Shown here: piece by piece, positions 2,726 through 64,000 of the stretch
Layout: each line of letters begins with the position of its first letter
Numbering within the stretch: position 1 is the first letter of the stretch
DNA from: Methylotuvimicrobium alcaliphilum 20Z
Lineage (GTDB): Bacteria; Pseudomonadota; Gammaproteobacteria; Methylococcales; Methylomonadaceae
Direction of reading: 5' to 3'
Assembly (NCBI RefSeq): GCF_000968535.2
Contig: NC_016108.1
Span: 1 to 64,000 of the forward strand
DNA: 64,000 bases
Program-made: the position numbers and the translations under genes
Notes under the pieces: generated by a model
What the model was told of the DNA's origin: nothing
The model's database searches: none
The model's input: the letters and a program-made list of their open reading frames with translations, nothing else

Positions 2726-3151
2726 ATGCACCAAACCATAACTCATCGCTTAACTGACGCTTTGCAAGATGAATACAAATCGCGGGCGACTTACCGGAAA
2801 GTGAATGAAAAGTTCGGCCCGGTCCGCCCGTTCATCAACATAGTTGAGGCCGAGGGCCGTCATGTCGACGCCCTAATTGCATTGTTTGAGAAATATCAAA
2901 TACCGGTACCGGAACATAGATGGTCTGAACGGATTACTGTTCCAGACACGTTTGAACAAGCTTGCCTGAATGCAGTCGCTGACGAAAAAGCCAATACTGC
3001 GATGTATGACCAGCTGATCGCTGCCAGTCCGGAACCTGATATTCGCCGGGTATTGGAAAACCTGCAATCCGCTTCCCGTGACCGTCATTTGCCGGCTTTC
3101 GAACGCAACGCTTCGAGACAGGGTAAAGGTGGCATGAGAAAACACGGTTAG
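2726..3151 (+). CDS. Ferritin-like (DUF2202/rubrerythrin-type) protein
   Basis: The 141-residue protein is all helical, with spaced acidic and histidine residues of a ferritin-like four-helix bundle: DEYKSRATY in helix 1, EAEGRHVDAL in helix 2, DEKANTAMYDQ in helix 3 and RDRHLPAFERN in helix 4. These look like E/H ligands of a di-iron site. A good ribosome site (AGGAG) lies 6-7 bases before the ATG. It has no signal peptide, so it should be cytoplasmic. Its place directly upstream of a ferrous iron transporter suggests iron storage or oxygen/peroxide detoxification, but that is inference. Confidence 0.75.
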   Translation: MHQTITHRLTDALQDEYKSRATYRKVNEKFGPVRPFINIVEAEGRHVDALIALFEKYQIPVPEHRWSERITVPDTFEQACLNAVADEKANTAMYDQLIAASPEPDIRRVLENLQSASRDRHLPAFERNASRQGKGGMRKHG

Positions 3152-3271
3152 GGTGTCGCGCTGATTTAGATCGAACCATTCTCGCGAATGCGGGTGTGAC
3201 GAAACGAACAATGCTGTTCTGACTATCTTCCGCACGGCTCAATTCCGCACGCTTTTTCAGGGAAGTTTCAA

Positions 3272-5800: not shown

Positions 5801-5803
5801 CGA

Positions 5804-7804
5804 ATGCCTTATAAAACTTATTTCGACAAAATTGATGCCCAACTGCTGAAAATCAGCCCTGCTCGCGACATTATGTTGTTGCGCGTGATTGCCGCTGTCA
5901 TTCCGGTGGTGTGTTTTGCTTTGGATGCCTTCTATGACATGCCGGTGCTTTATTGGCTGGGCATCCCTTTTTATCTGATCTGTCTGGCGCTTTATCTGGA
6001 AGCCTTGTTAAAAACCATCTTATTGATGCACAAGGTTTCAGCCGAATTGTTAATCGTCTTGGTGATGATCGTCACCCTGCTTGACGGGGAGCCGTTGAGC
6101 GGTGCGATGGTGGCTTGGTTTATCGGCTTGGGGTTGTATATCTCGTTTACGATTATTAGAAAAAACCGGGAAAAAATCGAAGCGCTCATCCAGGACAGCA
6201 AGAAAACCGCACAAGTCCTGCGCGGTGATCAAATCCATGAAATTCCGCTGCTGGAGGTGCAAAAGCAGGATGTGATCATTGTCGCCAAAGGCGCCATGAT
6301 CACTGTCGACGGGCTTATCAGCGACGGTGAGTCGTCCATCGATGAAGCCTTTGTTACCGGCGAGCCGTTTCCAGTATTTAAGCAACGCGGCGATGCAGTG
6401 ATTTCCGGTACATTGAATTTAACCGCGCCGCTCAAGGTGGTGGCGGAAAAAAACGGCAATGAAGCGTTTATTGCGATTATGACGCGGGAAATCGAAGCCG
6501 GTCTTCAGCAAAAATCCAGCTTACAGAAACGCGCCGATTTAACCGTGCAGATGCTCATCCTCGGCGTCACGGCTTATGCCTTTTTGCTGTTGTTTATGAC
6601 TGGCAGTCTGCATCTGATGGCAACCGCGCTTGCCGTGGTGTGTCCGTGTGCCTGGGCCTTGGCAACGCCCACTGCCTTTGCCGCCAATATCGGGCGCTTG
6701 GCGCGTAGCAACATTTTGGCACGCGGCGGCGAGCCGTTGGAAAATATGCAGGATATTAAAACCCTGATTTTGGATAAAACCGGCACCGTCACCAAGGCCG
6801 TGCTGGAAGTCAGCCAGGTGATTGCCCTCGCCATGCCGGAGCAGGACTTGTTGACCTTATGCGCATCGGTTGAATCCCGTTTCGAACATCCCATTGCCAA
6901 TACGATCGTCGCGTATGCCAACGGGCACGGTGTATCGCATTTGTTAAACGTAACCCAGGTTGAAGACTTGCCGGGCCGTGGCATAAAAGCTCGAATCGGC
7001 GCAGATACCGTATTGATCGGTAGTCAGGAAACCCTGCAGCAACTGGACATCGAACTACCGCCTTTAGATTACACCGGTCGGGCGATTTGGGTGGCTGTTA
7101 ACCGCGAAGTTAAAGGTGTCATTGTTATTCGCGACATTATCCGTGCCGAAATGCAGGGTTTGGTTACCGCTATTCATGAATGTGGCATCGAAACGGTACT
7201 GCTGGCCACGGGTGACAATGAGGAAAGCGAAGCCAAGCGGGTGGCTGAATACATCGGTGCTGATGGTTATTTTTACAACTTCAAGCCGGATGACAAAACC
7301 GCATTAGTCAAGAAAATGCAATTGCAAGGCAAAGTTGCCATGGTGGGTGACGGCGTCAACGATGCTCCGGCTTTGGCTGCGGCTAATGTCGGCATTGCCA
7401 TAGGCGGGCACAAGAATGTCAGTTTGGCGGTCATGTCGGCCGATATTGTGATTCTAGGCGACGACGCCAAGGACTTGATTACCATCCTGCGACTCAGCCG
7501 AAAAATGGGCGGCATTATCAAGCAAAATTATACCTGGGCAATGGGCTTTAATGCGATTGGGCTAACCCTGGCAACCCTCGGTGTGCTTAACCCTATCTTG
7601 GCCGCGCTATTTCATCATCTCAGTTCGGTCTTTGTCGTGGTCAATGCCAGCCGTCTGTATTTCACCGGCATTGAAAATTCTCCGATCGGGCCTTTGTTTC
7701 AGAAAATGGATGAAATTACCTGTCGAAAGCCTATGAGTCCGGCAGAGCCATTGCTGATCAATTCAGAAAATGCTGCCGAAACCGTTGTTGAACAACAGCC
7801 CTGA
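5804..7804 (+). CDS. P1B-type heavy-metal-translocating ATPase, CPC type
   Basis: The 666-residue membrane ATPase carries the TGEP actuator motif, the membrane metal site CPC (residues about 280-282, in CPCAWALATPT), the phosphorylation site DKTGT (Asp near 324), the HP signature (FEHPIA) and GDGVNDAP near 515. It lacks an N-terminal HMA domain. CPC pumps usually move Cu+, Zn2+, Cd2+ or Co2+. The tight link to FeoAB makes Fe2+ or a compartment-loading role worth considering: ferrosome clusters use P1B ATPases beside iron genes. I cannot assign the substrate from sequence. The start codon lies 3 bases after the feoB stop. Confidence 0.9.
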   Translation: MPYKTYFDKIDAQLLKISPARDIMLLRVIAAVIPVVCFALDAFYDMPVLYWLGIPFYLICLALYLEALLKTILLMHKVSAELLIVLVMIVTLLDGEPLSGAMVAWFIGLGLYISFTIIRKNREKIEALIQDSKKTAQVLRGDQIHEIPLLEVQKQDVIIVAKGAMITVDGLISDGESSIDEAFVTGEPFPVFKQRGDAVISGTLNLTAPLKVVAEKNGNEAFIAIMTREIEAGLQQKSSLQKRADLTVQMLILGVTAYAFLLLFMTGSLHLMATALAVVCPCAWALATPTAFAANIGRLARSNILARGGEPLENMQDIKTLILDKTGTVTKAVLEVSQVIALAMPEQDLLTLCASVESRFEHPIANTIVAYANGHGVSHLLNVTQVEDLPGRGIKARIGADTVLIGSQETLQQLDIELPPLDYTGRAIWVAVNREVKGVIVIRDIIRAEMQGLVTAIHECGIETVLLATGDNEESEAKRVAEYIGADGYFYNFKPDDKTALVKKMQLQGKVAMVGDGVNDAPALAAANVGIAIGGHKNVSLAVMSADIVILGDDAKDLITILRLSRKMGGIIKQNYTWAMGFNAIGLTLATLGVLNPILAALFHHLSSVFVVVNASRLYFTGIENSPIGPLFQKMDEITCRKPMSPAEPLLINSENAAETVVEQQP

Positions 7805-7835
7805 GCGTAAACCGTAATTCAAAAAGAGACGATAA

Positions 7836-8570
7836 ATGTTGTTATGGATCATGGGATTTAGTGCCTTAGGCAGTATCGGAGCTGTTGGTTGCGCAGCCTT
7901 GTTTTTGTTTTTCCCTAAAAGCATTCGCAAAGTGCTTATCCCTTGTTTGATCAGTTATGCGACCGGGACTCTGCTCGGTGCCGCATTCCTGGGTATGCTT
8001 CCCAATGCACTGCTAAAAGCACCGGCCGTTTCGGTGATGGCTACGACGCTGGCAGGTATGGTGGGGTTTTTCGTGTTGGAGAAACTGGTCATTTGGCGTC
8101 ACAGCCATGATGCTGAGGGTCAAGTAGATGACCGGGCCGCATCGTTAATTCTGATTGGCGATGCCTTTCACAACTTTGTGGATGGAGCGCTGATTGCAGC
8201 TGCATTTTTGACATCCATGCCCTTGGGAATCACCACAGCATTGGCAGTGATTGCCCACGAGATACCCCAGGAGGTTGGCGACTTTGCCATTCTCCTCGAC
8301 AGCGGCTACAGCCGAGGAAAGGCGTTGCTGATGAATGGACTCTCCTCCATCACCACCCTGCCTGGTGCATTGATCGCCTATTACTGGCTGGCCGAGATAC
8401 GCGAAGCAACACCCTATATTCTGGCGATTGCAGCGGCCAGCTTTATCTATATTGCGACTGCTGATCTCATTCCCATGCTGCATAGGCAGGTAAACACTGT
8501 GGCTGCGCTGCGTCAGTTATTACTGCTACTGGCAGGGATTGCTACGATTGCCTGGTTTCATTTTGGATAA
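7836..8570 (+). CDS. ZIP family metal transporter
   Basis: The 244-residue membrane protein has about eight hydrophobic segments and the two ZIP signature helices: HNFVDGALIAA (TM4) and HEIPQEVGDFAILL (TM5), whose His, Asp and Glu residues bind the metal. A short His-bearing loop (RHSHDAEG) lies before TM4. ZIP proteins carry Zn2+, Fe2+ or Mn2+ toward the cytoplasm. It begins 31 bases after the P1B ATPase and probably belongs to the same operon as feoB, which supports a role in divalent metal balance. Confidence 0.9.
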   Translation: MLLWIMGFSALGSIGAVGCAALFLFFPKSIRKVLIPCLISYATGTLLGAAFLGMLPNALLKAPAVSVMATTLAGMVGFFVLEKLVIWRHSHDAEGQVDDRAASLILIGDAFHNFVDGALIAAAFLTSMPLGITTALAVIAHEIPQEVGDFAILLDSGYSRGKALLMNGLSSITTLPGALIAYYWLAEIREATPYILAIAAASFIYIATADLIPMLHRQVNTVAALRQLLLLLAGIATIAWFHFG

Positions 8571-8648
8571 AACATGAATACTTTGACATATTGAACGCAT
8601 CTCTGGGTTTAACCATGGTTCGGCTTTGATGAACTCAAGAATTTGATT

Positions 8649-9395
8649 ATGTTTAAACTGGTTCTGATTCGTCATGGACAAAGTGTCTGGAATCTTGAAA
8701 ACCGCTTCACGGGTTGGACTGATGTGGACTTGTCCGATCAGGGGCGTGCCGAAGCCCGTGCCGCCGGTAAACTTTTATGCGAGTTAGGCTATGAATTTGA
8801 CCTGGCTTTTACATCGGTATTAAAACGCGCTATCCGCACCCTTAACCGCATTCAGGAAGAAATGGATCTGGACTGGATTCCGGTTATTCGCGCCTGGCAG
8901 TTGAATGAACGTCATTATGGCGCCTTACAAGGACTCAACAAGGCTGAGATGATTGACAAGTTTGGCGAAGCTCAGATCAAGATCTGGCGCCGCTCATACG
9001 CGATATTGCCTCCTGCGCTGGCATTGAATGATCAGCGACATCCCAAACTTGACCGTCGTTATGCCGATCTGACTCCGGAACAATTGCCCGTAGCCGAGTC
9101 GCTGAAGCTCACCCTGGAACGCGTGTTACCTTATTGGCATTCGGTGCTGGAACCCACCATCCTATCGGGCAAGCGCGTGCTGATCTCCGCCCACGGCAAC
9201 AGTATCCGTGCGCTAATCAAATACCTTGATAATCTTTCCGATACCGAGATAACTGAGCTCAACATCCCCACGGGTGTTCCGCTGGTTTACGAACTGGATG
9301 ACAATCTCAGGGTGATTCAGCATTACTACTTGGGCGGCTCAGAAGTCATCGCCAAAGCAGCAGTTGCCCATCAAGGAAATGCCAAAACCTATTAG
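8649..9395 (+). CDS. gpmA: 2,3-bisphosphoglycerate-dependent phosphoglycerate mutase
   Basis: The protein has the full GpmA pattern: [10 protein letters not shown] with the catalytic His near residue 9, [33 protein letters not shown], a RRSYAILPP-type loop, and the second catalytic His in [14 protein letters not shown]. About 248 residues is the normal length. The enzyme interconverts 3- and 2-phosphoglycerate in glycolysis. I chose the ATG at 8649; a TTG two codons upstream is possible. Its 3' end overlaps the convergent cytochrome gene by four bases. A housekeeping enzyme on a plasmid is unexpected, unless this block is chromosomal in origin. Confidence 0.93.
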
Positions 9396-9829
9396 TTTTG
9401 CAGTCGATACAGGTATTCCGTCAATGCCAGAATGCGACTACGAGCGGCCGACTCGCTGTCCTGTTGTGGATAATTATCGAAATACAATGAAGTCTGGTTG
9501 TTAAAGGCGTTGCCCCAGACGGGCATGTTACGTGGCCCATGAGCTGCAACTTCCTGGCGGCCATCTATGATTTGGAAGACTTTGTCGAATGGGAATACGC
9601 CTTTATTACTCTTGGCCAATACCGTCAGGTTGGGAACCGGACGGGTTAGCAGAGATTTTAACGGACCATCGTCGCCCTTGCCTGTCAGCCCATGGCAAAC
9701 GGCGCAGGCGGAATCGTATTCCCTTTTGCCAAGATCCAGCTTATCCGCCTGTGCATGATTGCACAAACCGATCAGCATGACGCCAATGAGAGCTAATGAG
9801 ATAGCTCGACATTTTGTAGAAATCTTCAT
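9392..9829 (-). CDS. Small periplasmic c-type cytochrome
   Basis: The 145-residue protein has an N-terminal signal peptide (hydrophobic stretch ending in NHAQA), one haem c site CAVCH, and a distal Met candidate in RNMPVWG. This fits a class I monohaem cytochrome c of the type found in electron transfer to oxidases or peroxidases. A possible partner is the triheme peroxidase-family protein at 10914-12314 on the same strand. The exact partner is not shown by the sequence. Confidence 0.85.
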
Positions 9830-9935
9830 CTTGTCTCCAAAGGTGGTTTAACGATGTCTGACTGACGCATGCGAACTATAGAGATCGCTTCAAAATTCAA
9901 AATATGACCGGGTTTACATACATTTGAGCGTAGGT

Positions 9936-10310
9936 TTAATCATGGTGATGATGTCCATGTTCATGCCCGTGCTCGTGTGGTTCAAGCGCTTCGGTTTTCA
10001 GCGTACCGTTTAAAAAATCCTCGACGGCTTGATCTGGACTGGTTTGCTTGGTGATCAAGGCCTGAATGTTTTTCCGTTGTAAGCGTCTGGCCAAGCCGGT
10101 ACCCATGCCGCCGGCAATGAGCACCTGCACGTGATCCAAGGGCGACGGCTCCAAGGGTGATGTCTCGTGGAACGACTGATCCTTGGTCAATTCCAGCATG
10201 TCTTTTCCGGCGATCGCGTCGTTCTCGATGGAATAAATCCAGAACTTCCTACACATACCGGTGTGGCCGGTAATTTCTTTTCGATTTTGACTGGCGACGG
10301 CAATTTTCAT
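9936..10310 (-). CDS. NifX/NifB C-terminal-like (dinitrogenase Fe-Mo cofactor family) protein with His-rich tail
   Basis: The 124-residue cytoplasmic protein begins MKIAVASQNRKEITGHTG, the start of the RNase H-like NifX/NafY fold, and contains VLIAGGMGTGLARRL, the family's conserved core. The C-terminus is HEHGHEHGHHHHD, a likely metal-binding tail. Family members bind iron-molybdenum or iron-sulfur clusters or act as metal carriers. Because no nitrogenase genes are nearby, a metal storage or carrier role linked to the iron block is more likely. Confidence 0.8.
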   Translation of the reverse strand: MKIAVASQNRKEITGHTGMCRKFWIYSIENDAIAGKDMLELTKDQSFHETSPLEPSPLDHVQVLIAGGMGTGLARRLQRKNIQALITKQTSPDQAVEDFLNGTLKTEALEPHEHGHEHGHHHHD

Positions 10311-50424: not shown

Positions 50425-51351
50425 ATGAGAATTTCCAATTTATTTAAATTTTTTAGTTTACTCTTTATTTTGACCGTACCGTACACGGCAACAGAAGGTT
50501 CAACCTTTACGGCTGGCCACATATTTACTTCGAATTATTTTTCAAACGCTATTAATTACTATCAAAACGACGGAACTTATGTTGACTCCTTCACAGTTCC
50601 ATCTATTTACGGTAAGGATGTTAAAGGCGTGGCTTTTGGTCCGGATGGTTTGCTTTATGCTGTCACATCTACTGGCACTTCAGGATTTAATGTCCTAGCG
50701 ATGGATAGTAGCGGCGCAGTTAAAAAGACCTACTTCGGAACTAGCTATGTAGCCGGAAACTTATCTTCAGGCAAAATTACATTTGGTGAAAACGGTGATT
50801 TTTTTGTAGCTGGTGGCAATTCTCTTACCGCTTTTACCCCTACCAACGCAAGCGGTAGCATTATTTACAATAATAATCAAGTTTTTGATGCTACAAATTT
50901 ACCCAACGGTAATTTATTAGTTCTATCGGCATATGATTTACATGAAATTACGCCCGTAGGCTCTGTCGTTAGAGCCCTGACTTCCGCTTATATAGTGGAT
51001 GGCCGAGGATTGGCTTATGACGCAACTACTAACAGTATTTATGTCTCTATGCTCGGCTTTACCAATAATTATGATCAACTGATGCGTTTAAATGGAAAAA
51101 CCGGTGCTTTGGAAAATAGCACAGTCTACTGGTATGGTGACGACATAATGTTAACCGCTGATAACAGAGTGATTGTTGGAAGCAGGACATTAGCGCCTGG
51201 AATTTTTGACTTGGACTTGAATTATTTAGGGACTTTAGGAACAAAACAACAAATGTTTGTTGCTCAAGTGCCAGTACCATTACCCTCCGCTATATGGCTA
51301 ATCTGCACTGGCTTATTGGGGCTGTTAGGCCTGAATCGCAGTCAGCTATAA
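50425..51351 (+). CDS. Secreted beta-propeller-like protein with VPLPA-type sorting tail
   Basis: The 308-residue protein has an N-terminal signal peptide (FKFFSLLFILTVPYTATEG). It has repeated NHL/SMP-30-like beta segments (GVAFGPDGLLYAVTS, GKITFGENGDFFVAGG, GRGLAYDATTNSIYVSM) and ends in VPVPLPSAIWLICTGLLGLLGLNRSQL. That tail is a PEP/VPLPA-CTERM sorting signal: motif, membrane helix and basic end. The exosortase would process it for export to the surface or matrix. No exosortase gene is in the window. Confidence 0.85.
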   Translation: MRISNLFKFFSLLFILTVPYTATEGSTFTAGHIFTSNYFSNAINYYQNDGTYVDSFTVPSIYGKDVKGVAFGPDGLLYAVTSTGTSGFNVLAMDSSGAVKKTYFGTSYVAGNLSSGKITFGENGDFFVAGGNSLTAFTPTNASGSIIYNNNQVFDATNLPNGNLLVLSAYDLHEITPVGSVVRALTSAYIVDGRGLAYDATTNSIYVSMLGFTNNYDQLMRLNGKTGALENSTVYWYGDDIMLTADNRVIVGSRTLAPGIFDLDLNYLGTLGTKQQMFVAQVPVPLPSAIWLICTGLLGLLGLNRSQL

Positions 51352-54297: not shown

Positions 54298-54645
54298 GTT
54301 TAGGTTACCGATAACTTGGGATGGGTTAGCGCTACCTAATTATGCGAATAAATTCTAATGTTAGCCGACCGAATCAGTTTTGCCAATTTTGGGTGGGAAT
54401 AGGGGAAACTGAGGGTAAAATTCCTAAAACAAAAATTTTAGTAATTTTTTATTCCCAGGCACTCCCGAAATTGTGTTTTCGTGTTCCCTAATAGGCTTTT
54501 TTGCATGAAACCTGGAATTTTACGTTTTGGTATTTTAAGTCTAATGCTACAAAATAGTCATTTTAGTAAATTCTGTTTCCGGCCGAAACGACCGGAAAGC
54601 CGCCGAAAACCGCTAACAGGTTTCGAACGAGCGGATGGAGGAGAG
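54298..54645. other. Gene-free interval, promoter of the recombinase
   Basis: About 350 bases without a gene. It is AT-rich and divergently placed between the RHH-like gene and the recombinase. A reading frame from 54481 extends upstream of the true start but lacks a ribosome site. Confidence 0.55.
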
Positions 54646-55578
54646 ATGGCTAATTCGATTGAATTGAAGTTCAAGAAAATCCAAAAAGAGTTTCTTGAGT
54701 TTTTAAAGTTCACCAAGGGCCACGCCGACACGACTTGCTACAACTACAACAGCGATTTGAACATCTGGATCGCCTGGCTGACCGAAGAGGGTAAGGACTG
54801 GCGCAAATGCCAGCCCCTCGACACCGAGCATTTCGTTTCGTACCTGGCCAAAAACAAAGTCGGTCCCCACGCGATCGCCCGGAAGATTTCCTGCCTGTCC
54901 ACCTTTTATAAATGGGCCAAGCGCAATAACCACGTCGAGGAAGATCCGATCTACCAGATCGAGAAGCCGAAACGCCCCCGGCGGATGCCGGTTTGGTTGG
55001 AAACTGAAGAACAAGATGCGTTCACCAAAGCCGTCCGCAATTACGACGACATTCCGGACAACATTTATGGCCGTAGCAAGCCCTCGTCAATCAAGATTCG
55101 TCAGCGTTATGAATTACTGTTTGAGTTGATCCAAAAGTCCGGATTGAGGATCAGCGAAGCCTTGAGTCTGAAATCCGCCGACGTTCGGGTGGTCGACGGC
55201 GTGGCCAAATCGGTGCGGGTGATAGGGAAGGGCAACAAGGAACGGCAAGTTCCGCTCCCGGAAAGTTTCGGCCGGGTTCTGGCGTTGTCGATCGCCGACA
55301 AGTACCGCGATGAATTCCTGTTCGCGAAAAAACCGGGCTGTCGGCCGGTTAGCCATCATGCCGCGCGGGCCTATCTTAAGAAGATGATCGACAAGGCCGG
55401 CATTGAAAAGAAGGTTACGCCGCACAAGCTCCGACATACTTATGCCACGAGGCTCTTGGAAAAGGACGTGCAGCTGGTGGACATTCAGACGCTGTTGGGC
55501 CATGAAAGCATTGCCACGACGCAGATTTACACGCATGCGGGGCAGGAGCGGTTATCTAAGCTGGTGGCGGATATTTGA
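54646..55578 (+). CDS. Tyrosine recombinase/integrase (XerC-like)
   Basis: From the ATG at 54646 (GGAGGAGAG directly upstream) the product is 310 residues. It has the SAM-like N-terminal core-binding domain (FLKFTKGHADTTCYNYNSDL) and the catalytic domain with Arg in SGLRISEAL, HKLRHTYATRL (His, Arg), GHESIATTQIYTH (His and nucleophilic Tyr). It could resolve plasmid multimers or mobilise the defence block downstream. No attachment repeats were found by eye. Confidence 0.92.
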   Translation: MANSIELKFKKIQKEFLEFLKFTKGHADTTCYNYNSDLNIWIAWLTEEGKDWRKCQPLDTEHFVSYLAKNKVGPHAIARKISCLSTFYKWAKRNNHVEEDPIYQIEKPKRPRRMPVWLETEEQDAFTKAVRNYDDIPDNIYGRSKPSSIKIRQRYELLFELIQKSGLRISEALSLKSADVRVVDGVAKSVRVIGKGNKERQVPLPESFGRVLALSIADKYRDEFLFAKKPGCRPVSHHAARAYLKKMIDKAGIEKKVTPHKLRHTYATRLLEKDVQLVDIQTLLGHESIATTQIYTHAGQERLSKLVADI

Positions 55579-55586
55579 GGTGAAAC

Positions 55587-55835
55587 ATGAATCGCATCTA
55601 CCTGGAACGCCACGATCCCGACCAAAACATGCACCGGTTCTATCAGATGTTTGTTTCACCCGGCTTAGACGGTGATTGGTCGTTGGTCCGGGAATGGGGC
55701 CGGGTAGGATCGCCCGGAACAGTCCGGAAGGATTGGTTCGATACCGAACCGGAAGCATTGGAAGCCGCTGGGAAAGTTTTTGATGCCAAGAAGAAAAAGG
55801 GTTACCGGGTCATTATTGAGAAGTTGATATCGTGA
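55587..55835 (+). CDS. WGR-domain protein
   Basis: The 82-residue protein is essentially one WGR domain: NMHRFYQMFV..DWSLVREWGRVGSPGTVRKDWFD, with the WGR-type signature EWGRVG. WGR domains bind nucleic acids and occur with DNA repair or RNA-linked proteins. It starts 8 bases after the recombinase stop, so it is co-transcribed. The paired role is unknown. Confidence 0.85.
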   Translation: MNRIYLERHDPDQNMHRFYQMFVSPGLDGDWSLVREWGRVGSPGTVRKDWFDTEPEALEAAGKVFDAKKKKGYRVIIEKLIS

Positions 55836-56017: not shown

Positions 56018-56218
56018 ATGGAAGACAGATGGCTTTCCGTAGAAGAAATTTGTGACTACCTCGGTATCAAGCGGGATACGGTTTACAAGTGGATTAATGA
56101 AAAATCGATGCCAGCGCATCGAGTGGGGCGTCTTTGGAAATTCAAAAAAGAGCAAGTCGATGCATGGGTTGAGGCGGGTGGTGCAGCGGAGAGCAACAAG
56201 AAGGACTCGAATAAATGA
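56018..56218 (+). CDS. HTH excisionase-type DNA-binding protein
   Basis: The 66-residue MerR/excisionase-like protein has RWLSVEEICDYLGIKRDTVYKWINEK and PAHRVGRLWKFKKEQVDAWVE, the usual helix-turn-helix of such proteins. It overlaps the helicase gene by four bases (ATGA), so it is coupled to the defence operon and probably regulates it. Confidence 0.9.
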   Translation: MEDRWLSVEEICDYLGIKRDTVYKWINEKSMPAHRVGRLWKFKKEQVDAWVEAGGAAESNKKDSNK

Positions 56219-59200
56219 GGATCATCGATAACATCAATTCTTTGCTAGGCGACGATCTTAAGGCGTCTATTTCCCCCAAATCCAAGTTGAAGATTGCAGC
56301 ATCATGCTTCTCAATTTATGCCTATGAAGCCTTGAAGACAGAGGTCTCAAAAATTGAGACCTTAGAATTCATTTTTACGGCTCCGACTTTTGTACCTAAC
56401 GAAGTTACGGATAAATTTAAAAAGGAACGCCGAGAGTTTTTTATACCTAAGGCTGACCGTGAACGTAGTCTGTACGGTTCTGAATTTGAAATTCAACTTC
56501 GCAACAAACTGACTCAGCGGGCTATTGCACGCGAATGTGCCGAATGGATGCGAAGAAAGGCTAAATTCCGCTCCAATAAAACCAAGTCACCAATGCAACA
56601 GTTTGCCTGTGTACAGGGCTCAGGACATGACGTTGCGTATATGCCACTACATGGTTTTACTGCCGTGGATTTGGGGTATCAGCGAGGAGATGCCGTTTCG
56701 AATATCGTTAACCGGGTTGATGAAACCGCCTTTACGACGACCTACCTCCAGCTTTTTGACCAAATTTGGAACGACCCTGACAAACTTGAAGATGTTACCG
56801 CCGCGATCTGTGATCATATTGCATCGGTCTATCAGGAAAATTCGCCTGAGCGTATCTATTTCCTGATGCTCTACAATATCTTTAGCGATTTCCTTAATGA
56901 TATCGACGAAGATGTTTTGCCGAACGATCTCACGGGCTATCAGGATACGTTAGTCTGGAACAAGCTCTTCAATTTTCAACATGATGCCGCCATAGGCATT
57001 ATCAACAAACTGGAAACCTATAACGGTTGTATCCTGGCCGACAGTGTGGGGCTTGGTAAAACATTCACGGCCTTGGCCGTTATCAAATACTACGAGCTTA
57101 GAAATCGGTCTGTGCTCGTTTTGTGTCCGAAGAAACTTGCGGACAACTGGCTAAATTACAATAGCAATCTTACAACTAATATTTTCTCCAAGGATCGTTT
57201 CAATTACGACGTTCTTTGTCACACGGACTTATCTCGTACCTCGGGTGAATCATTTGGCATTCCTCTGAACCGCATCAACTGGGGTAACTATGATCTGGTT
57301 GTAATAGACGAGTCGCATAATTTTCGGAACAACGATGCGGTTAAAGACAGAGAAACTCGCTATCAAAAACTGATGAATCAGGTTGTTCGCCAAGGCGTTA
57401 AAACCAAAGTTCTCATGCTGTCTGCTACCCCGGTTAATAATCGCTTCAATGATCTGCGCAACCAACTGGCCCTGGCTTACGAAGGTGAATCCGAAAATCT
57501 CAGCAAAAAGCTACGCACTGGCAGAAGCGTGGAAGAAATCTTCCGGAACGCACAAACAGTATTTAATCAATGGTCAAAATTACCCATAGAAAGTCGCACA
57601 GCACGGGCCATTCTGGAGGCCCTTGATTTCGACTTTTTTGAGCTATTGGATAGTGTCACCATTGCTCGTTCGCGTAAGCACATTCAGACCTTTTACGATA
57701 CCAGTGACATAGGCCAGTTCCCTGAGCGCCGAAAGCCCCTGTCGTTCCATTCTCCGCTTACCGGTCGCATGGACGTAATGAATTTCAACGAGATTTTTGA
57801 ACAGCTATCGCTGCTCAAACTCGCCGTCTATGCTCCAATCAGTTACATATTGCCCAGTCGTCTTAAAAAGTATGAAGATTTGTACGACACGCAAATTGAA
57901 GGTGGTAAAGGGAAACTGAAGCAAGCGGATCGCGAACGGAGTCTTCAGGCACTGATGACGACTAATCTGCTCAAGCGTCTTGAAAGCTCCGTCGAGGCCT
58001 TTCGTCTTACCCTGCAAAGTTTACATAACAACCACACTCGCACCTTGACTAAAATCGATTCATTCAAGGTTTCTGGTAGCGAAAGTAGTGTTTCCGACTG
58101 GACCGATAGCCTGGCTAATCTGGATGCCGAAGAAGATGATATCCCCGGTTTAGATGACAACTCGATTGGCGGCAAGGTCAAAATTAATCTTGCCGACATG
58201 GATCTGCCCTCATGGGAACATGATTTAAACGGCGATCTGGAGGTCATTAATACCTTGTTGGACTCAATGGCAAAAGTCACTCCAGAGGACGATGCCAAGT
58301 TGCAACACCTCAAGAACCTTATCCTGGGTAAGATTGAAAACCCGATTAATGACGGTAATAGAAAAGTCCTGCTCTTCACTGCCTTTGCAGATACGGCCAA
58401 TTATCTATACAACAATTTGGCCAGTCATCTTCTGGCCACAAAGGGGCTGCATACGGGAAAAGTCACTGGCAAGGATTCGCCTAAATCAACGCTCAAGAAG
58501 AGCTACGATTTTCAGTCGTTGCTGACGCTTTTCTCGCCCCGTGCCAAGGAAAAGGCACAAGTGCTGCCAGAGGAACCGGCCGAGATAGACCTATTGATTG
58601 GCACCGACTGTATTTCAGAAGGCCAAAACCTTCAGGACTGCGATTATTTGATCAACTACGATATTCACTGGAACCCGGTTCGCATTATCCAGCGTTTTGG
58701 CCGTATCGACCGCATTGGCTCTATCAATCAGACCATTCAGTTGGTGAACTATTGGCCCGATATTTCACTGGACGAATACATAAATCTCAAAGAACGAGTC
58801 GAAAATCGAATGATGATTGCCGACGTGACGGCTACTGGTGATGACAACGTACTTACGGCAAAAAGCAGCGAGGTTTCTTACCGGAAAGAGCAGCTTCGGC
58901 GTTTGCAGGATGAAGTGATTGAACTTGAGGATCTAAAGACCGGCGTATCCATCACTGATCTTGGCCTAAACGACTTCCGGATGGATTTACTGAACTATGT
59001 AAAAACCAATGGCGATCTCGCAAATGTGCCCAATGGCATGCATGCGGTTGTTCCGGCTAAGCCGGAACTGGGTTTGCACCCTGGTGTAATCTTCGCACTG
59101 CGCAACCTTAACCATGCCGTTAATATCAATCAGCAGAATAGGCTGCATCCCTATTACCTGATCTATATTGCCGTCGATGGGCAAATTATCGCCAACCATA

Positions 59201-59487
59201 CCGAGGTTAAATCGCTGCTCGACCTGGTGCGATCCAGCTGCAAAGGTCAGTCCGAACCCATTCAGACGATCTGTCATTTATTTAATCAGCAGACAGATGA
59301 AGGCCGTAACATGAAAGCCTGTTCCGACCTGCTTAGTGCGGCCATTCGCTCAATGATCGACGTCAAGGAAGAAAAGGATATTGATAGCCTATTTTCCGGC
59401 GGCAGGACCACGGCGCTGGTGAACACCATTGCCGGGCTCGATGATTTCGAACTTGTGGCTTTTCTCGTGGTGCAGGAGCAAGGATAA
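56215..59487 (+). CDS. SNF2-like helicase with degenerate PLD-like N-terminus
   Basis: The 1,090-residue protein has an N-terminal part of about 270 residues that resembles a phospholipase D-like/nuclease fold (KLKIAASCFSIYAYEAL) without the HKD motif. The helicase has Walker A GLGKTFTAL near residue 278, DESH near 365, SATPVNNRF, GTDCISEGQNLQ near 795 and QRFGRIDRIGS near 826. It would translocate on duplex DNA. It is tightly coupled to the HTH gene upstream and to the DUF4391 gene downstream (5 bases between). It is probably the motor of the defence module. Confidence 0.93.
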   Translation: MRIIDNINSLLGDDLKASISPKSKLKIAASCFSIYAYEALKTEVSKIETLEFIFTAPTFVPNEVTDKFKKERREFFIPKADRERSLYGSEFEIQLRNKLTQRAIARECAEWMRRKAKFRSNKTKSPMQQFACVQGSGHDVAYMPLHGFTAVDLGYQRGDAVSNIVNRVDETAFTTTYLQLFDQIWNDPDKLEDVTAAICDHIASVYQENSPERIYFLMLYNIFSDFLNDIDEDVLPNDLTGYQDTLVWNKLFNFQHDAAIGIINKLETYNGCILADSVGLGKTFTALAVIKYYELRNRSVLVLCPKKLADNWLNYNSNLTTNIFSKDRFNYDVLCHTDLSRTSGESFGIPLNRINWGNYDLVVIDESHNFRNNDAVKDRETRYQKLMNQVVRQGVKTKVLMLSATPVNNRFNDLRNQLALAYEGESENLSKKLRTGRSVEEIFRNAQTVFNQWSKLPIESRTARAILEALDFDFFELLDSVTIARSRKHIQTFYDTSDIGQFPERRKPLSFHSPLTGRMDVMNFNEIFEQLSLLKLAVYAPISYILPSRLKKYEDLYDTQIEGGKGKLKQADRERSLQALMTTNLLKRLESSVEAFRLTLQSLHNNHTRTLTKIDSFKVSGSESSVSDWTDSLANLDAEEDDIPGLDDNSIGGKVKINLADMDLPSWEHDLNGDLEVINTLLDSMAKVTPEDDAKLQHLKNLILGKIENPINDGNRKVLLFTAFADTANYLYNNLASHLLATKGLHTGKVTGKDSPKSTLKKSYDFQSLLTLFSPRAKEKAQVLPEEPAEIDLLIGTDCISEGQNLQDCDYLINYDIHWNPVRIIQRFGRIDRIGSINQTIQLVNYWPDISLDEYINLKERVENRMMIADVTATGDDNVLTAKSSEVSYRKEQLRRLQDEVIELEDLKTGVSITDLGLNDFRMDLLNYVKTNGDLANVPNGMHAVVPAKPELGLHPGVIFALRNLNHAVNINQQNRLHPYYLIYIAVDGQIIANHTEVKSLLDLVRSSCKGQSEPIQTICHLFNQQTDEGRNMKACSDLLSAAIRSMIDVKEEKDIDSLFSGGRTTALVNTIAGLDDFELVAFLVVQEQG

Positions 59488-59492
59488 CAACT

Positions 59493-60194
59493 ATGCTCTT
59501 CGACTATCCAAAAAGCGCCGCCTTCGGTCGTGTGCTGCCCAAGAACAAAATCTATGAGCATGCAAATCCGAGCGCTGCGGTAAAAGAGCTTTTTGTTCGC
59601 CAGGTGGAAAGGATCGTTTGGCAGTACAAATTGGCTCCCGATACCATCAACTTGAAAGAAACGTCGTTTGTCCCTGAAATCCAGATTTTTAGCGTGACTC
59701 TCAAGGATGGAGAGCTGAAACATGATGTACTGCGTTGCATTGACCAGGCAATTCCTTTTCCGATTTTCTTTGAGCTGAGTTTTGACGGAAATATCAAAGC
59801 TATCGCGGCCTTCAAACGGCCTAGCGAAGCGGACGGATCGAAATGGGTGATTAGCGACTATTTTGAGACCGCTTGGTTTCTAAGCGATGAGCCACGTCGA
59901 CCGTTGCCGATGGCTTTCGATCTTGAAGCATTATACGCGCATTTTTTGGGGCCTTTGATGCCTTACCCAGCCCTGATAGGAGAGGGATTACGGGCGCGTG
60001 TTGAAAGGATGGATCAAATTCGCTTCAAACAACGGGAGCTGGAAAAATGCGAGGCCCGTCTGCGCAAAGAAAAACAATTCAATCGCAAAGTCGCGATTAA
60101 TGCGGAACTCCGCAACCTGAAACAAGAACTAGAAACTATGACCCGCCCCCTCCCTGTAAGTGGGTCGGCAGTCACCTCTAAAGGACGATTATGA
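59493..60194 (+). CDS. DUF4391-domain protein
   Basis: The 233-residue protein has the DUF4391 pattern: KNKIYEHANPSAAVKELFVRQVERI, VWQYKLAPDTINLKET, IQIFSVTLKDGELKHDVLRCIDQAIPFPIFFEL, and a C-terminal coiled coil. DUF4391 genes recur next to helicases and type III restriction genes in defence islands. The biochemical role is not known to me. It overlaps the mod gene start by four bases. Confidence 0.88.
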   Translation: MLFDYPKSAAFGRVLPKNKIYEHANPSAAVKELFVRQVERIVWQYKLAPDTINLKETSFVPEIQIFSVTLKDGELKHDVLRCIDQAIPFPIFFELSFDGNIKAIAAFKRPSEADGSKWVISDYFETAWFLSDEPRRPLPMAFDLEALYAHFLGPLMPYPALIGEGLRARVERMDQIRFKQRELEKCEARLRKEKQFNRKVAINAELRNLKQELETMTRPLPVSGSAVTSKGRL

Positions 60195-62173
60195 TGGAAA
60201 AAATGAAAATGCACTCCCCGAACCTGACACAGGACAACATCACCCGTATTAAGGAGCTGTTTCCCGGTTGTGTGACTGAAGCCTATGACGAAAACGGCAC
60301 GCTAAAACTAGCGGTGGATTTTGACCAACTGCGGCAGGAATTGTCGGAATCCATCGTTGAGGGTCCGCAAGAACGCTATCACCTCAATTGGCCAGGGAAA
60401 CGGGAAGCACTGCTCACCGCCAACGCCCCCATCGCCAAGACCCTGCGCCCCTGCCGGGGGGAGAGTGTGGATTTTGATACCACGAAGAACCTGTTTATAG
60501 AGGGCGACAACCTGGAGGCCTTGAAGCTGCTCCAGGAGACCTACCTCGGCAAGGTCAAGATGATCTATATCGATCCGCCGTACAACACGGGGAATGATTT
60601 TATCTACGAGGATGACTTTGCTGAGAACTCAGAAGAGTTCCTGAAAAGGTCAAACCAGAAGGATGAAGAAGGCAATCGTCTCGTGGCGAATACAGAGGCC
60701 AATGGGAGGTTTCACTCTGACTGGCTTTCCATGATTTATGCACGACTGAAACTGGCGAGAAACTTATTGAGCGATAATGGTTCCATCATACTCAGCATCG
60801 ATGATGCTGAGTATGAGAATCTGAAAAAATGCATGGATGAGATATATGGACTTGATAACTATTTGGCCACTTTAGTCTGGGATAAAAATAGAAAGAATGA
60901 TGCAAAGTATTTTTCTGTTGGCCATGAATATATGCTCATTTATTCAAAGTCATCACAGAGGCTCTTGGAAGATGGGGTGATTTTTCGTGAGCCAAAGGAA
61001 GGAATTGATGAGATTAGAGCTTTCTACACAGAATTAAAAATGAAGTATGGCGATGATAATGAAGCTGTCCAGCTTGAATGGCGAAAGTACTTCAACTCAT
61101 TGTCTTCGGATGATCCAAAAAAGCTGCTCGGGCGATTTTCAAAAATTGACAGCAAAGGCCCTTTCCGAGATGACGGTAATATCTCCTGGCCAGGGGGAGG
61201 GGGGCCAAAATACGACGTTGTTCATCCTGAAACTGGCAAGAAGTGTAAGGTTCCTGATGGAGGGTGGCGATACGGAACGCCTAAAAGATTTTGGGAAGAA
61301 GTAGCTTCTGGAAAAGTTGTATTTGGGCCTGATGAATCTACTCTACCCCGTCAGTGCAGGTATTTATTTGAGTCTGAGGGGCAAGTTATGCGTTCTGTTC
61401 ATTACAGTTACGCGCAAACTGCGACGATGAAATTTAACGAGATAATGGGTCAAAGAATATTCGAGAACCCCAAAAGCTACTCTGACATTCAAAGAATGAT
61501 TAGATACCTTACCAATGGCAATGACTTGGTAGTTGATTTTTTTGCTGGTTCAGCAACTACTGCCCATTCTGTTGTTGCACAAAATTCCGAAGATGGCGGC
61601 AATCGCAAATTCATTATGGTTCAACTTCCCGAACTATGCGATCAAAAGTCCGAAGCATTCAAATCAGGCTATAAAACCATCGCTGAAATTAGCAAAGAAC
61701 GCATCCGCCGGGTTGGCAAGAAAATTCTGGAAGGCGGATGTCATGAAGGCTGGAACAAGGACATCGGCTTCCGCGTTCTCAAGATCGACTCATCCAACAT
61801 GGCCGAGGTCTACTACACCCCAGATGCCATAAACCAAGGTCAGGTCGATGCCTTTGTCGATAACATCAAGCCAGATCGCAAGCCGGAAGATCTGCTCTTT
61901 CAGGTGTTGCTTGATTGGGGCGTTGATTTGTCGCTGCCTATTCGCAAGGAAACCATTCAAGGGAAGTCGGTCTTCTATGTCAATCACCCCCCCTATGATC
62001 TGATTGCTTGTTTTGACGATGGTGTAAACGAAGAGCTGGTCAAGGAGCTGGCTCGGTCCGAGGCTTTGCGTGTCGTATTCCGTGACAATGGTTTCGTGTC
62101 TGATTCCGTAAAAATCAACGTCGAACAGATTTTCAAACAGTTGTCTCCGGGCACCGAAGTGAAATCAATTTAA
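60191..62173 (+). CDS. mod: Type III restriction-modification methyltransferase subunit (Mod)
   Basis: The 660-residue protein has the DPPYNTG motif (Asp near residue 128) before the SAM-binding motif DFFAGSATTAHSV near 449, the order of beta-class N6-adenine methyltransferases used in type III systems. A target recognition region lies between them. It methylates one strand of an asymmetric site and, with Res, forms the restriction enzyme. The recognition sequence cannot be read from the protein. It lies 12 bases upstream of res. Confidence 0.95.
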   Translation: MMEKMKMHSPNLTQDNITRIKELFPGCVTEAYDENGTLKLAVDFDQLRQELSESIVEGPQERYHLNWPGKREALLTANAPIAKTLRPCRGESVDFDTTKNLFIEGDNLEALKLLQETYLGKVKMIYIDPPYNTGNDFIYEDDFAENSEEFLKRSNQKDEEGNRLVANTEANGRFHSDWLSMIYARLKLARNLLSDNGSIILSIDDAEYENLKKCMDEIYGLDNYLATLVWDKNRKNDAKYFSVGHEYMLIYSKSSQRLLEDGVIFREPKEGIDEIRAFYTELKMKYGDDNEAVQLEWRKYFNSLSSDDPKKLLGRFSKIDSKGPFRDDGNISWPGGGGPKYDVVHPETGKKCKVPDGGWRYGTPKRFWEEVASGKVVFGPDESTLPRQCRYLFESEGQVMRSVHYSYAQTATMKFNEIMGQRIFENPKSYSDIQRMIRYLTNGNDLVVDFFAGSATTAHSVVAQNSEDGGNRKFIMVQLPELCDQKSEAFKSGYKTIAEISKERIRRVGKKILEGGCHEGWNKDIGFRVLKIDSSNMAEVYYTPDAINQGQVDAFVDNIKPDRKPEDLLFQVLLDWGVDLSLPIRKETIQGKSVFYVNHPPYDLIACFDDGVNEELVKELARSEALRVVFRDNGFVSDSVKINVEQIFKQLSPGTEVKSI

Positions 62174-62185
62174 GGAGGGCTTGGC

Positions 62186-64000
62186 ATGAAACTGAAGTTC
62201 AAAGTCCAGCCCTACCAAACTAGTGCCGTCGAATCAGTGATTAACTGCTTTGCAGGGCAAGCAAATACCTCTGGCATTGTTTACCGGATCGATCCTGGTA
62301 TTGATAAAAAAGCCTTAAAAAAAGGAGCCTATTTACCGGGCATGGAGCCTGAAATAGTATCTGGCTTCAAAAACGCTGACATACAACTGACAGACGCGCA
62401 GTTGATTGAAAACATACAAGCCGCGCAGCAACGGCAAAATCTGAACATCTCTCAATCTCTCGATGAATTTTTTGATATGAAAGGCACGCCCATGCCTGCA
62501 TCATATAAACCTGGATGTAAGGTCAATCTCGACATTGAAATGGAAACCGGAACAGGCAAGACCTACTGCTATATCAAGACCATCTTTGAGATGAATAAGC
62601 AGTACGGTTGGACCAAGTTCATTGTTGTGGTGCCTAGCATTGCCATCCGAGAGGGCGTGTTTAAATCTCTTAAAATTACTGCCGAGCACTTCACCGAAAG
62701 TTATGGGAAGAAAATTCGATTTTTCATATACAACTCTAAACAGCTCCATCAATTGGAGAGCTTCTCGTCCGATGCCGGCATCAATGTCATGGTTATCAAT
62801 ATCCAAGCATTCAACGCCAAAGGAGCCGATGCTAGACGTATCTATGGCACGCCTAAAAAAATGCCAAATGGAAAAGAAGAGCTTGTGGGGCTCGATGATT
62901 TTCAATCTCGAAAGCCTATAGACGTCATTAGCGCTAACCGTCCAATTCTCATTCTGGACGAACCGCAGAAGATGGGTGATAAGACGCGTGAATCACTAAA
63001 AGATTTTAAGCCGCTGATGATTTTGCGCTATTCGGCGACACACAGTACTACACATAACAAGATTCATCGACTCGATGCCCTGGACGCCTACAATCAGAAG
63101 CTGGTGAAGAAGATTGCCGTTCGCGGCATTGCCATGAAGGGACTGGCCGGTACTAATGCCTATCTCTATTTGGAGTCCATCGAGATTTCCAAAAAGGCTC
63201 CGGTAGTTCGCCTTGAGATGGAGGTTCGCCAGGGCGGCGGCATCAAACGGATTGTGAAGCGCCTGGAAAAGGGAAAGGATTTGTTCGTTGAGTCAAACGA
63301 ACTCGATCAATATCGCGGCTTTGTTATTGCTCAGATCGACGCCAACAAAGACACTGTTGAATTCACCAATGGTCATGTACTGAGTGCTGGTGACGCAACC
63401 GGTGACGTAACCGAGATGGCAATCCGTCGAATTCAGATTCGTGAGGCAATCAAAGCCCACTTCGAGAAGGAACAGCGCCTCTTTGCACAGGGAATTAAGG
63501 TCTTGTCTCTATTTTTCATTGATGAAGTGGTTAAGTACCGGGATTACAGCCAGGCCGATGAGCAGGGGGAATATGCCCGAATTTTTGAAGAAGAGTACGA
63601 GCAACTTAAGGCAGAATATTTAGGCGAGCTTGCCCTTGATAACGAGGGCTACAGAAAATACCTGACCGATATTCAGGTTCGTCGCACACACAATGGTTAC
63701 TTTTCCATTGATAAAAAGACAAAGAAACTCACCGATCCCGGTTTCAAAACACGTGGTGAAGATGCCGGGCTATCGGATGATGTCGATGCCTATGACCTGA
63801 TTCTCAAGGATAAAGAACGGCTATTGTCCTTTGAAGAGCCGGTTCGGTTTATCTTCTCCCATTCTGCTCTGCGCGAAGGTTGGGATAACCCCAACGTTTT
63901 TGTGATGTGCATGCTTAAGCATAGCGATAACACAATTTCTCGTCGCCAAGAGGTAGGCCGAGGCCTCAGGCTGTCTGTTAACCAACATGGCGACCGCATG
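62186..64000 (+). CDS. res: Type III restriction enzyme Res subunit, 3' end beyond the window
   Basis: An open frame from the ATG at 62186 (AAGGAGGGC upstream) runs to the last base without a stop, 605 codons. It has the DEAD-like helicase of Res: [13 protein letters not shown] (Walker A), [13 protein letters not shown] (Walker B), then the C-terminal helicase part [17 protein letters not shown] and [14 protein letters not shown]. The endonuclease domain normally at the C-terminus lies beyond 64000. It is the last visible gene of the operon. Confidence 0.95.

Follow-up and report, generated by a model that had tools for sequence, protein, structure and literature searches.

A SNF2-family helicase and a DUF4391 protein in fixed order with type III restriction genes, from a locus of Methylotuvimicrobium alcaliphilum 20Z

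Introduction

In the usual account, type III restriction takes two proteins, and a locus of Methylotuvimicrobium alcaliphilum 20Z raises the question of what a DNA motor might add to it. The locus lies at 56018-64000 of the stretch that we analysed, positions 1-64,000 of NC_016108.1 (64,000 nt, hereafter the window), and consists of five closely packed genes: a helix-turn-helix (HTH) gene, a SNF2-family helicase, a DUF4391 protein, and type III Mod and Res. An earlier note on this DNA had taken them for a five-gene coupled array in which the helicase and the DUF4391 protein are extras beside a type III pair that normally does without them, and had thought a composite mechanism likely. All five genes are present on the + strand in operon-like packing. 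Helicase, DUF4391, Mod and Res form a recurrent unit, and the helicase carries an N-terminal domain of predicted PLD-nuclease fold that is best read as non-cutting, its catalytic residues having apparently been lost. We interpret the system as a type III restriction enzyme to which a non-cutting SNF2 motor is attached, DUF4391 being the adaptor that would hold it, a reading to which we give a probability of about 0.5; we are far surer of the operon unit and of the loss of the PLD site than of the adaptor and translocation roles.

Results

The locus and its type III genes

The gene names are backed by Pfam, NCBIfam and PADLOC scans, and the four junctions, in gene order, are a 4-base overlap, a 5-base gap, a 4-base overlap and a 12-base gap. 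The features are as follows.

56018..56218, + strand: HTH protein (MAD1/excisionase-like), 66 residues, probable regulator; HTH_17 67 bits, NF047737 82.7 bits
56215..59487, + strand: SNF2-family helicase (motor), 1090 residues; SNF2-rel_dom and Helicase_C above cut-off, PADLOC C3a139 428 bits
56215..56958, + strand: N-terminal domain of the helicase, predicted PLD-nuclease fold, catalytic H/K pair absent; AlphaFold, Foldseek and HKD-site alignment
59493..60194, + strand: DUF4391 protein, 233 residues, proposed adaptor; PF14335 229.4 bits, cut-off 29.9
60191..62173, + strand: type III Mod, 660 residues; N6_N4_Mtase, PADLOC MTase_III 764.5 bits, EcoP15I Mod (4zcf_A) E 4.2e-78
60911..61450, + strand: variable region of Mod, residues ~241-420, presumed target-recognition; median distance 0.80
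62186..64000, + strand: type III Res, in-window part (first 605 codons); PADLOC REase_III 1109 bits over residues 1-1046

The window end cuts the last gene. Complete Res, of 1051 residues, occupies 62186-65341 of the contig (12186-15341 in L002; labels of this kind are our own), with an RE_endonuc domain at residues 928-1037 (E 1.4e-33) and ResIII above cut-off. Residues 22-516 of Mod match EcoP15I Mod (PDB 4zcf_A), and residues 112-772 of Res match EcoP15I Res (PDB 4zcf_C, E 2e-73). The DPPY pattern of Mod is kept in 80 of 80 homologues and F.G[SG] in 76 of 80; the Res patterns are kept in 80, 80 and 79 of 80, the last being a PDW..ETK-type pattern. The locus thus has both defining parts of type III restriction-modification, a Mod with N6-adenine methyltransferase motifs and a Res with an SF2 ATPase and a C-terminal nuclease domain. 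The description of the helicase and DUF4391 genes as additional to a complete type III pair is borne out.

Recurrence of the four genes

We searched 311 genomes of the host order for DUF4391, the helicase and Res, and 398 genomes of the phylum for the helicase and DUF4391; helicase matches were scored at E 1e-60 or better, with at most two candidates per genome. In the order sample, DUF4391 matched in 44 genomes (35 above cut-off), the helicase gave 44 matches in 37 genomes, and the Res family was found in 64. In the phylum sample there were 21 helicase matches, one of them the window itself and hence 20 additional, and DUF4391 was found in 23 genomes. The neighbourhoods of two DUF4391 matches of the order sample (G076:C39 and G293:C89) were left out.

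Selection by helicase gave 64 distinct matches, of which 48 adjoin a free-standing DUF4391 gene, 15 adjoin a large Eco57I-type methyltransferase and one is at a contig edge. Mod or Res goes unseen past a helicase-DUF4391 pair only where the contig stops within 0.9 kb of the last gene. The earlier note had counted independent scattering of the pair as evidence against its proposal; in this half of its test no such scattering appeared, for none of the 64 helicases lacks a methyltransferase partner except near contig ends. All five DUF4391 loci of the phylum sample that had no helicase match (L207-L211) are cut at a contig edge, one of them inside the helicase.

Selection by DUF4391 gave 80 named loci, which are the best 80 of 180 matches to one C-terminal peptide pattern and are biased to close relatives of the window. 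In all 80 a same-strand helicase gene precedes DUF4391 at a distance of no more than 450 bases; Mod is next in 77 and Res in 70, the rest being on contigs that end there. Loci found through DUF4391 (L033-L067 and L073-L152) inform the statement that DUF4391 implies the helicase, not the converse.

All four genes were present in 102 loci, and every one of these has the order helicase-DUF4391-Mod-Res, so that the check proposed in the earlier note, a search for the gene order in other genomes, came out in its favor. Constancy of this kind exceeds chance. Spacing between helicase and DUF4391 is below 350 bases in 100 of the 102 loci, between DUF4391 and Mod in 57 and between Mod and Res in 59. 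These counts were made per locus, the helicase being split over two frames in L081 and L108, and deduplication dropped only frames with identical last 150 residues. The frames inserted at the junctions are on the same strand in 134 of 149 cases and represent known defence-type genes: the ten largest clusters, named from one representative each, are an OLD/GajA-like ATPase, a YhcG nuclease, AlbA/Schlafen, BRO-N, two Fic proteins, SIR2, HerA, a UvrD-type helicase and a second Mod. The DUF4391/Mod and Mod/Res junctions therefore take cargo (for example in L108, L115, L137 and L212), and the helicase/DUF4391 junction rarely does.

The gene upstream of the helicase is variable. Among 107 helicase rows with room for it, an HTH homologue was recognized in 21, a WYL homologue in 9 and neither in 77 (the HTH of the window, at 6018-6218 in L002, was compared with L103, L110 and L204). 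Because an HTH or WYL homologue stands upstream in only 30 of the 107 rows, we place the HTH gene outside the core set, as an optional member, and count four genes in the unit. Of the five-gene unit first proposed, the helicase, DUF4391, Mod and Res remain.

The lineages of the loci span at least ten phyla. Relatives of the helicase are present in 101 plasmid records, including Listeria (20), Enterococcus (18) and Escherichia (14), and in 5 phage records. DNA similarity to the Yersinia rohdei gene was found in 88 of 5426 complete E. coli genomes (~1%), 54 of them with at least 80% of the query. The helicase, DUF4391, Mod and Res follow one another in order on two E. coli chromosomes, both with an extra gene between DUF4391 and Mod, on a 115-kb E. 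coli plasmid, and in the Erysipelothrix phage phi1605. E. coli PCP06171, from seawater, carries locus L212. On the E. coli plasmid pEC21Z137-115K (L206) the four genes are a few small genes away from repA; the plasmid also has dnaE and an exonuclease gene and is perhaps a phage-plasmid.

A PLD-fold domain without catalytic residues

The motor of the helicase is well preserved: simple patterns find motifs I and II in all 80 homologues and motif VI in 78 of the 80. The motor was correctly recognized as SNF2-like; the protein has in addition an N-terminal domain that the earlier description did not include. AlphaFold modelled these 248 residues with a mean predicted local distance difference test score (pLDDT) of 72.5 and a predicted template modelling score (pTM) of 0.65, residues 59-96 falling below 50. 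With this model, Foldseek returned three PDB matches at E 0.001 or better, two SauUSI chains (best 7clg, E 3.7e-5) and the NgoAVII R-protein (4rct, E 6.3e-4), and we take most of the 50 Foldseek rows to be PLD-superfamily proteins. The domain is accordingly predicted, on the strength of a model of moderate confidence, to have the PLD-nuclease fold.

The catalytic site was compared with that of a two-gene sister system, which consists of a SNF2 helicase whose PLD (HKD) site, wherever it can be read, is intact, and an Eco57I-type methyltransferase (L068 at 2816-10159; L069, L071, L072, L153-L162 and L183). At the aligned HKD site the window helicase reads MQQFACVQ...PLHGFT and the sister helicase LLHGKLYHID...GSSNFT, and in the latter Pfam detects the PLD domain directly. 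After deduplication and among rows with a readable site, the catalytic H/K pair is present in 14 of 14 Eco57I-associated helicases and in 0 of 112 Mod-Res-associated ones, a count that leaves out 14 type III-associated and 2 Eco57I-associated rows without a readable site. In two of the 112 (L044 and L117) an HxK string precedes the aligned site by a few residues; it was not scored as the motif. In the sister systems the helicase, with its complete PLD catalytic site, would be the nuclease; Pfam reported no nuclease domain in the two Eco57I-type methyltransferases scanned (L068 and L070). The PADLOC model C3a139 recognizes the helicase of one sister locus at 415 bits.

DUF4391 and its relation to the methyltransferases

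The AlphaFold model of DUF4391 (mean pLDDT 91.1, pTM 0.83) has an alpha+beta body, at about residues 1-155, and a C-terminal helical hairpin (166-217). Searches with the whole protein gave nothing in the PDB at E 0.001 or better with Foldseek, chiefly matches to the C-terminal hairpin with VIA-align (best Z 7.5), and nothing convincing in a profile search of PDB sequences (best E 0.15); we make no claim that the fold of the body is new. DUF4391 likewise had no PADLOC 2.0.0 match at E 0.001.

The N-terminus of the sister methyltransferase resembles DUF4391. A profile comparison gave a probability of 82.7 and P 9.5e-6 over 130 columns, against P 0.03 or worse and a probability of at most 1.6 for 22 control slices of other proteins from the same loci. 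Pfam reports DUF4391 in the two Eco57I-type methyltransferases scanned at E 8e-5 and 2e-6, both below the curated cut-off. In the order sample as a whole, 14 frames of such methyltransferases have a weak DUF4391 signal, two above cut-off, and 13 of the 14 adjoin the helicase; the remaining frame, L070, has no helicase alongside. L162 and L183, among the 15 loci with an Eco57I-type partner, gave no Pfam DUF4391 match.

Co-variation within the unit

In the 66 loci of the window's clade, DUF4391 distances follow those of the helicase closely (r 0.91, partial 0.72) and those of Res in lesser degree (r 0.80, partial 0.20). The partial correlations over all 80 loci are 0.54 with the helicase, 0.13 with Res and -0.03 with Mod, and by this measure DUF4391 co-varies with the helicase and not with Mod. 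Mod itself is of two parts. Within residues 241-420 the median pair of the window's clade differs at 80% of sites, with r 0.01 against helicase distances; the first 210 and last 120 residues keep 74-93% mean agreement per 30-residue block. The presumed recognition region is thus freely exchanged on an otherwise constant chassis, as is expected of a specificity-swapping restriction system.

Comparison with known systems

No part of the unit falls outside the named families, and half of it, Mod and Res, is type III restriction-modification. The likeness to EcoP15I and EcoPI consists in the match of Mod and Res to the EcoP15I subunits and in the conserved catalytic motifs; the difference is the two extra upstream genes, in fixed order, where EcoP15I is a system of two genes (PMC12707154, consulted in part). 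In CglI and NgoAVII, as here, a PLD-fold protein and a helicase stand alongside a methyltransferase, and the helicase N-terminus matches the NgoAVII R-protein 4rct. There, however, the cutting R-protein is separate from the helicase N-protein, whereas here a single protein combines the helicase with the PLD domain, whose site is degenerate, and the locus also encodes a Res nuclease. SauUSI, a type IV enzyme with PLD, helicase and SRA domains, provides the best structural match (7clg) and has the same PLD-then-helicase layout (PMC12707154, in the part consulted), but in our protein Pfam reported no SRA domain, the PLD site is lost, and the locus has its own methyltransferase.

Several other classifications were considered and not adopted. 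The helicase scores low with PADLOC PLD_Helicase (83.6 bits) and HmaA (87.9 bits) and with NCBIfam NF042964 (120.7 bits, cut-off 1100); PLD_Helicase and NF042964 we take to stand for the DUF499-centred BREX-related (BR) type 2 systems. As set out in the part of PMC12839542 available, these contain a nuclease-helicase fusion (HKD and Swi2/Snf2) and an N6-methyltransferase, together with a DUF499 ATPase, a DUF1156 methyltransferase and DUF3780. None of DUF499, DUF1156 and DUF3780 was found in Pfam scans of the array and its upstream neighbors, and we did not file the locus as BREX-related, lacking as it does the DUF499 ATPase and DUF1156 methyltransferase. DISARM class 1 (DrmD) resembles the locus in having a related SNF2 helicase adjoining a methyltransferase. 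The NCBIfam DrmD score is 149 bits against a cut-off of 610, and DISARM was set aside; the DrmA model is touched by the helicase only (78 bits) and no DrmB or DrmC was listed, the HerA, phosphoesterase and AAA_27 genes downstream having been scanned with Pfam only. For MADS, the 66-residue HTH exceeds the NCBIfam MAD1 model NF047737 (82.7 bits, cut-off 80), and otherwise there are weak matches of the downstream AAA ATPase to mad3 (36 bits) and mad8 (23 bits), with three downstream genes outside the MAD scan; this assignment was not adopted, nor was ARMADA, as far as the portion of PMC12458937 consulted describes it. The best PADLOC model for the window helicase is the candidate C3a139 'HKD+Snf2' (428 bits), whose name implies an HKD nuclease, whereas the helicase of the type III form has lost the catalytic residues.

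In the literature searched, DUF4391 occurs in one table row (PMC7784981, in the part covered). The nearest mention of the combination, in the part of PMC12757443 covered, is a single Cronobacter element with a type III restriction enzyme, Mod, DNA helicase IV and a SNF2 family helicase, which are not treated as a system. The covered parts of PMC10853773, PMC12452197, PMC10952713 and PMC13335696 contain no description of the four-gene system. The literature searched, with subscription papers (including Gao et al. 2020) and preprints beyond its reach, contained no published description of the four-gene combination, and likewise none of the PLD-fold identity with loss of its site, of the link between DUF4391 and Eco57I-type methyltransferases, or of the cargo slots.

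Surroundings of the locus

Two genes precede the array, as the earlier note had reported.

54481..55578, + strand: tyrosine recombinase (XerC/D-like), context, outside the system; Phage_integrase E 1.8e-35
55587..55835, + strand: WGR-domain protein, context; PF05406 E 1.1e-20

The recombinase scores below the cut-offs of both the XerC and the XerD models. Beyond Res the co-directional array continues to about 75.3 kb of the contig, for a total of about ten genes and 19 kb rather than the five first described: an AAA ATPase, a DUF4297 protein, a HerA-type ATPase, a metallophosphoesterase and a 1149-residue AAA_27 protein, followed by a resolvase. The first of these is an AAA_13 ATPase (contig 65409-67517; 15409-17517 in L002) that begins 67 bases past Res and corresponds to PADLOC PDC-S06 over nearly its full length (986 bits). 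The DUF4297 and HerA genes lie at contig 67629-70587 (3629-6587 in L003) and, by name, we assume them to be like a known two-gene defence type. The metallophosphoesterase and AAA_27 pair (6618-11331 in L003) is Mre11/Rad50-like in appearance, and the resolvase is next to it. Exported proteins at window 50425-51351 and at 13171-14184 of L003 flank the array; the C-termini of both are, we presume, PEP-CTERM-like.

At the other end of the window, 3272-5800 encodes FeoA and FeoB domains in one 842-residue fusion adjoining a P-type ATPase. The 128-kb contig (C1) had looked like a candidate plasmid; because its first genes include these two, the idea was dropped, though without proof. A scan for promoters gave 12 promoter-like sites, fewer than the 21.9 in shuffled sequence, and one for terminators gave 18 against 15.1, roughly equal; neither carries weight.

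Discussion

How might the four proteins work together? In the reading that we prefer, Mod, as an N6-adenine methyltransferase, would mark host DNA at an asymmetric site, and Res would be the nuclease, having taken over cutting in the type III form. The helicase would act as an ATP-driven motor on double-stranded DNA, its non-cutting PLD-fold domain being retained for DNA binding or assembly, and DUF4391 would be the adaptor that holds the motor on the methyltransferase, just as in the sister systems the Eco57I-type methyltransferase appears to carry a related domain at its N-terminus; it is mainly because of that profile and Pfam match that we call DUF4391 an adaptor. Most likely the motor adds powered translocation or protein displacement on foreign DNA. 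The complex may thereby restrict targets that are hard for plain type III enzymes, such as sites not in inverted pairs; type III enzymes require two inverted unmodified sites, according to the part of PMC12707154 consulted. In CglI, the R and N proteins associate and ATP hydrolysis is required for cleavage (PMC4267653, in the part consulted). CglI and NgoAVII are examples of an ATP-driven restriction complex built from a PLD-type nuclease and a helicase, and for this reason we favor a coupled motor. The physical complex, the adaptor role, the benefit of the motor to type III restriction and the part in phage defence are what we infer.

A number of observations weigh against this reading. In the tree of the motor part (N-terminal domain removed, 69 rows), a single branch separates the Eco57I- and type III-associated groups, and therefore the HKD contrast amounts to one event and not 126. 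The sequence link between DUF4391 and the Eco57I-type methyltransferase is weak. DUF4391 and Mod are separated by 350 bases or more in 45 of the 102 loci, and their distances in the 66 loci of the window's clade give r 0.40 and partial 0.00, an absence of co-variation that does not help a role for DUF4391 in docking onto Mod. Mod and Res can also exist alone. The Res family is present in 64 of the 311 genomes of the order, against 35 with DUF4391 above cut-off. We examined 20 further Res loci, most of them lacking a DUF4391 match nearby (in L192 and L193 a fragment matched). In eight, the sequence ahead of Mod, 3.5 kb or more, contains neither helicase nor DUF4391; two retain pieces of the helicase or of DUF4391, and the other ten lie too near a contig edge. 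Five of the eight (L186 and L188-L191), whose genomes gave no match in the order-wide helicase search, nest within pair-bearing clades of the Res tree. Provided that the ancestors of the deep clades had the pair, it would have been lost at least three times; the Res tree, like that of the motor, is a quick one with SH-aLRT (Shimodaira-Hasegawa-like approximate likelihood ratio test) support only, labels L192 and L193 as pair-bearing though they hold fragments only, and has long branches in L196, L198, L199 and L205. Decay is visible as well. Among loci of the order sample, L055 has full-length DUF4391, Mod and Res, and of its helicase just the final 59 residues are left; in L063 the helicase is missing and DUF4391 is truncated, with Mod and Res present; and L067 and L192 have remnants of both genes beside Mod and Res, so that in these four loci, where the helicase is absent or reduced to 24-59 matching residues, the pair has decayed while Mod and Res persisted (L065 is broken at a contig edge). 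The composite mechanism of the earlier note fits the evidence, and full coupling is weakened by these loci.

The same loci speak for a different view, in which one transcript carries two independent modules, an ordinary Mod-Res system and a self-sufficient helicase-DUF4391 defence module. Mod-Res alone or with a decayed pair, the other genes that separate DUF4391 from Mod in as many as 45 of the 102 loci, and the absent DUF4391-Mod co-variation would all fit it. Against it, each of the 64 helicase-selected matches has a methyltransferase partner, save where the contig stops no more than 0.9 kb past the last gene found; the decayed locus L064, where Mod is missing, keeps only fragments of helicase and DUF4391 and a remnant of Res, and in the sister loci a DUF4391-like domain seems to be part of the methyltransferase itself. 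We take this alternative seriously and nonetheless hold it to be rather unlikely. Were the pair instead to serve modification or self/non-self control, regulating Mod, or sensing unmethylated or blocked DNA and licensing Res without any translocation for cleavage, the DUF4391-like domain on the sister methyltransferase and a motor with conserved motifs and a lost nuclease site would fit; Mod-Res relatives persist without the pair, which is then dispensable for viable modification, and we judge such a role improbable. That an ordinary type III system merely lies beside hitch-hiking defence-island genes is suggested by its place in a defence array near recombinases and by the loss of the pair from some Mod-Res loci. 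With order, adjacency and co-variation held constant in many lineages, plasmids and phages while other neighbors vary, we believe this to be very improbable.

The attached, non-cutting motor remains the reading that we prefer, and we offer only tentatively, as something that we doubt more than we believe, its widest form: that DUF4391 is a general coupling module that would plug a PLD-fold SNF2 motor onto different methyltransferases, the motor being also the nuclease with the Eco57I-type partner and, with the type III partner, part of a powered translocating restrictase independent of inverted site pairs.

What the locus adds is a four-gene type III form, in which a DNA motor and a small partner stand in fixed order with Mod and Res, and with it a first testable role for DUF4391. 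The type III and Eco57I-type forms offer a ready-made comparison between motors of one kind that have lost or kept the nuclease site, and they put the question of what a DNA motor may add to type III restriction.

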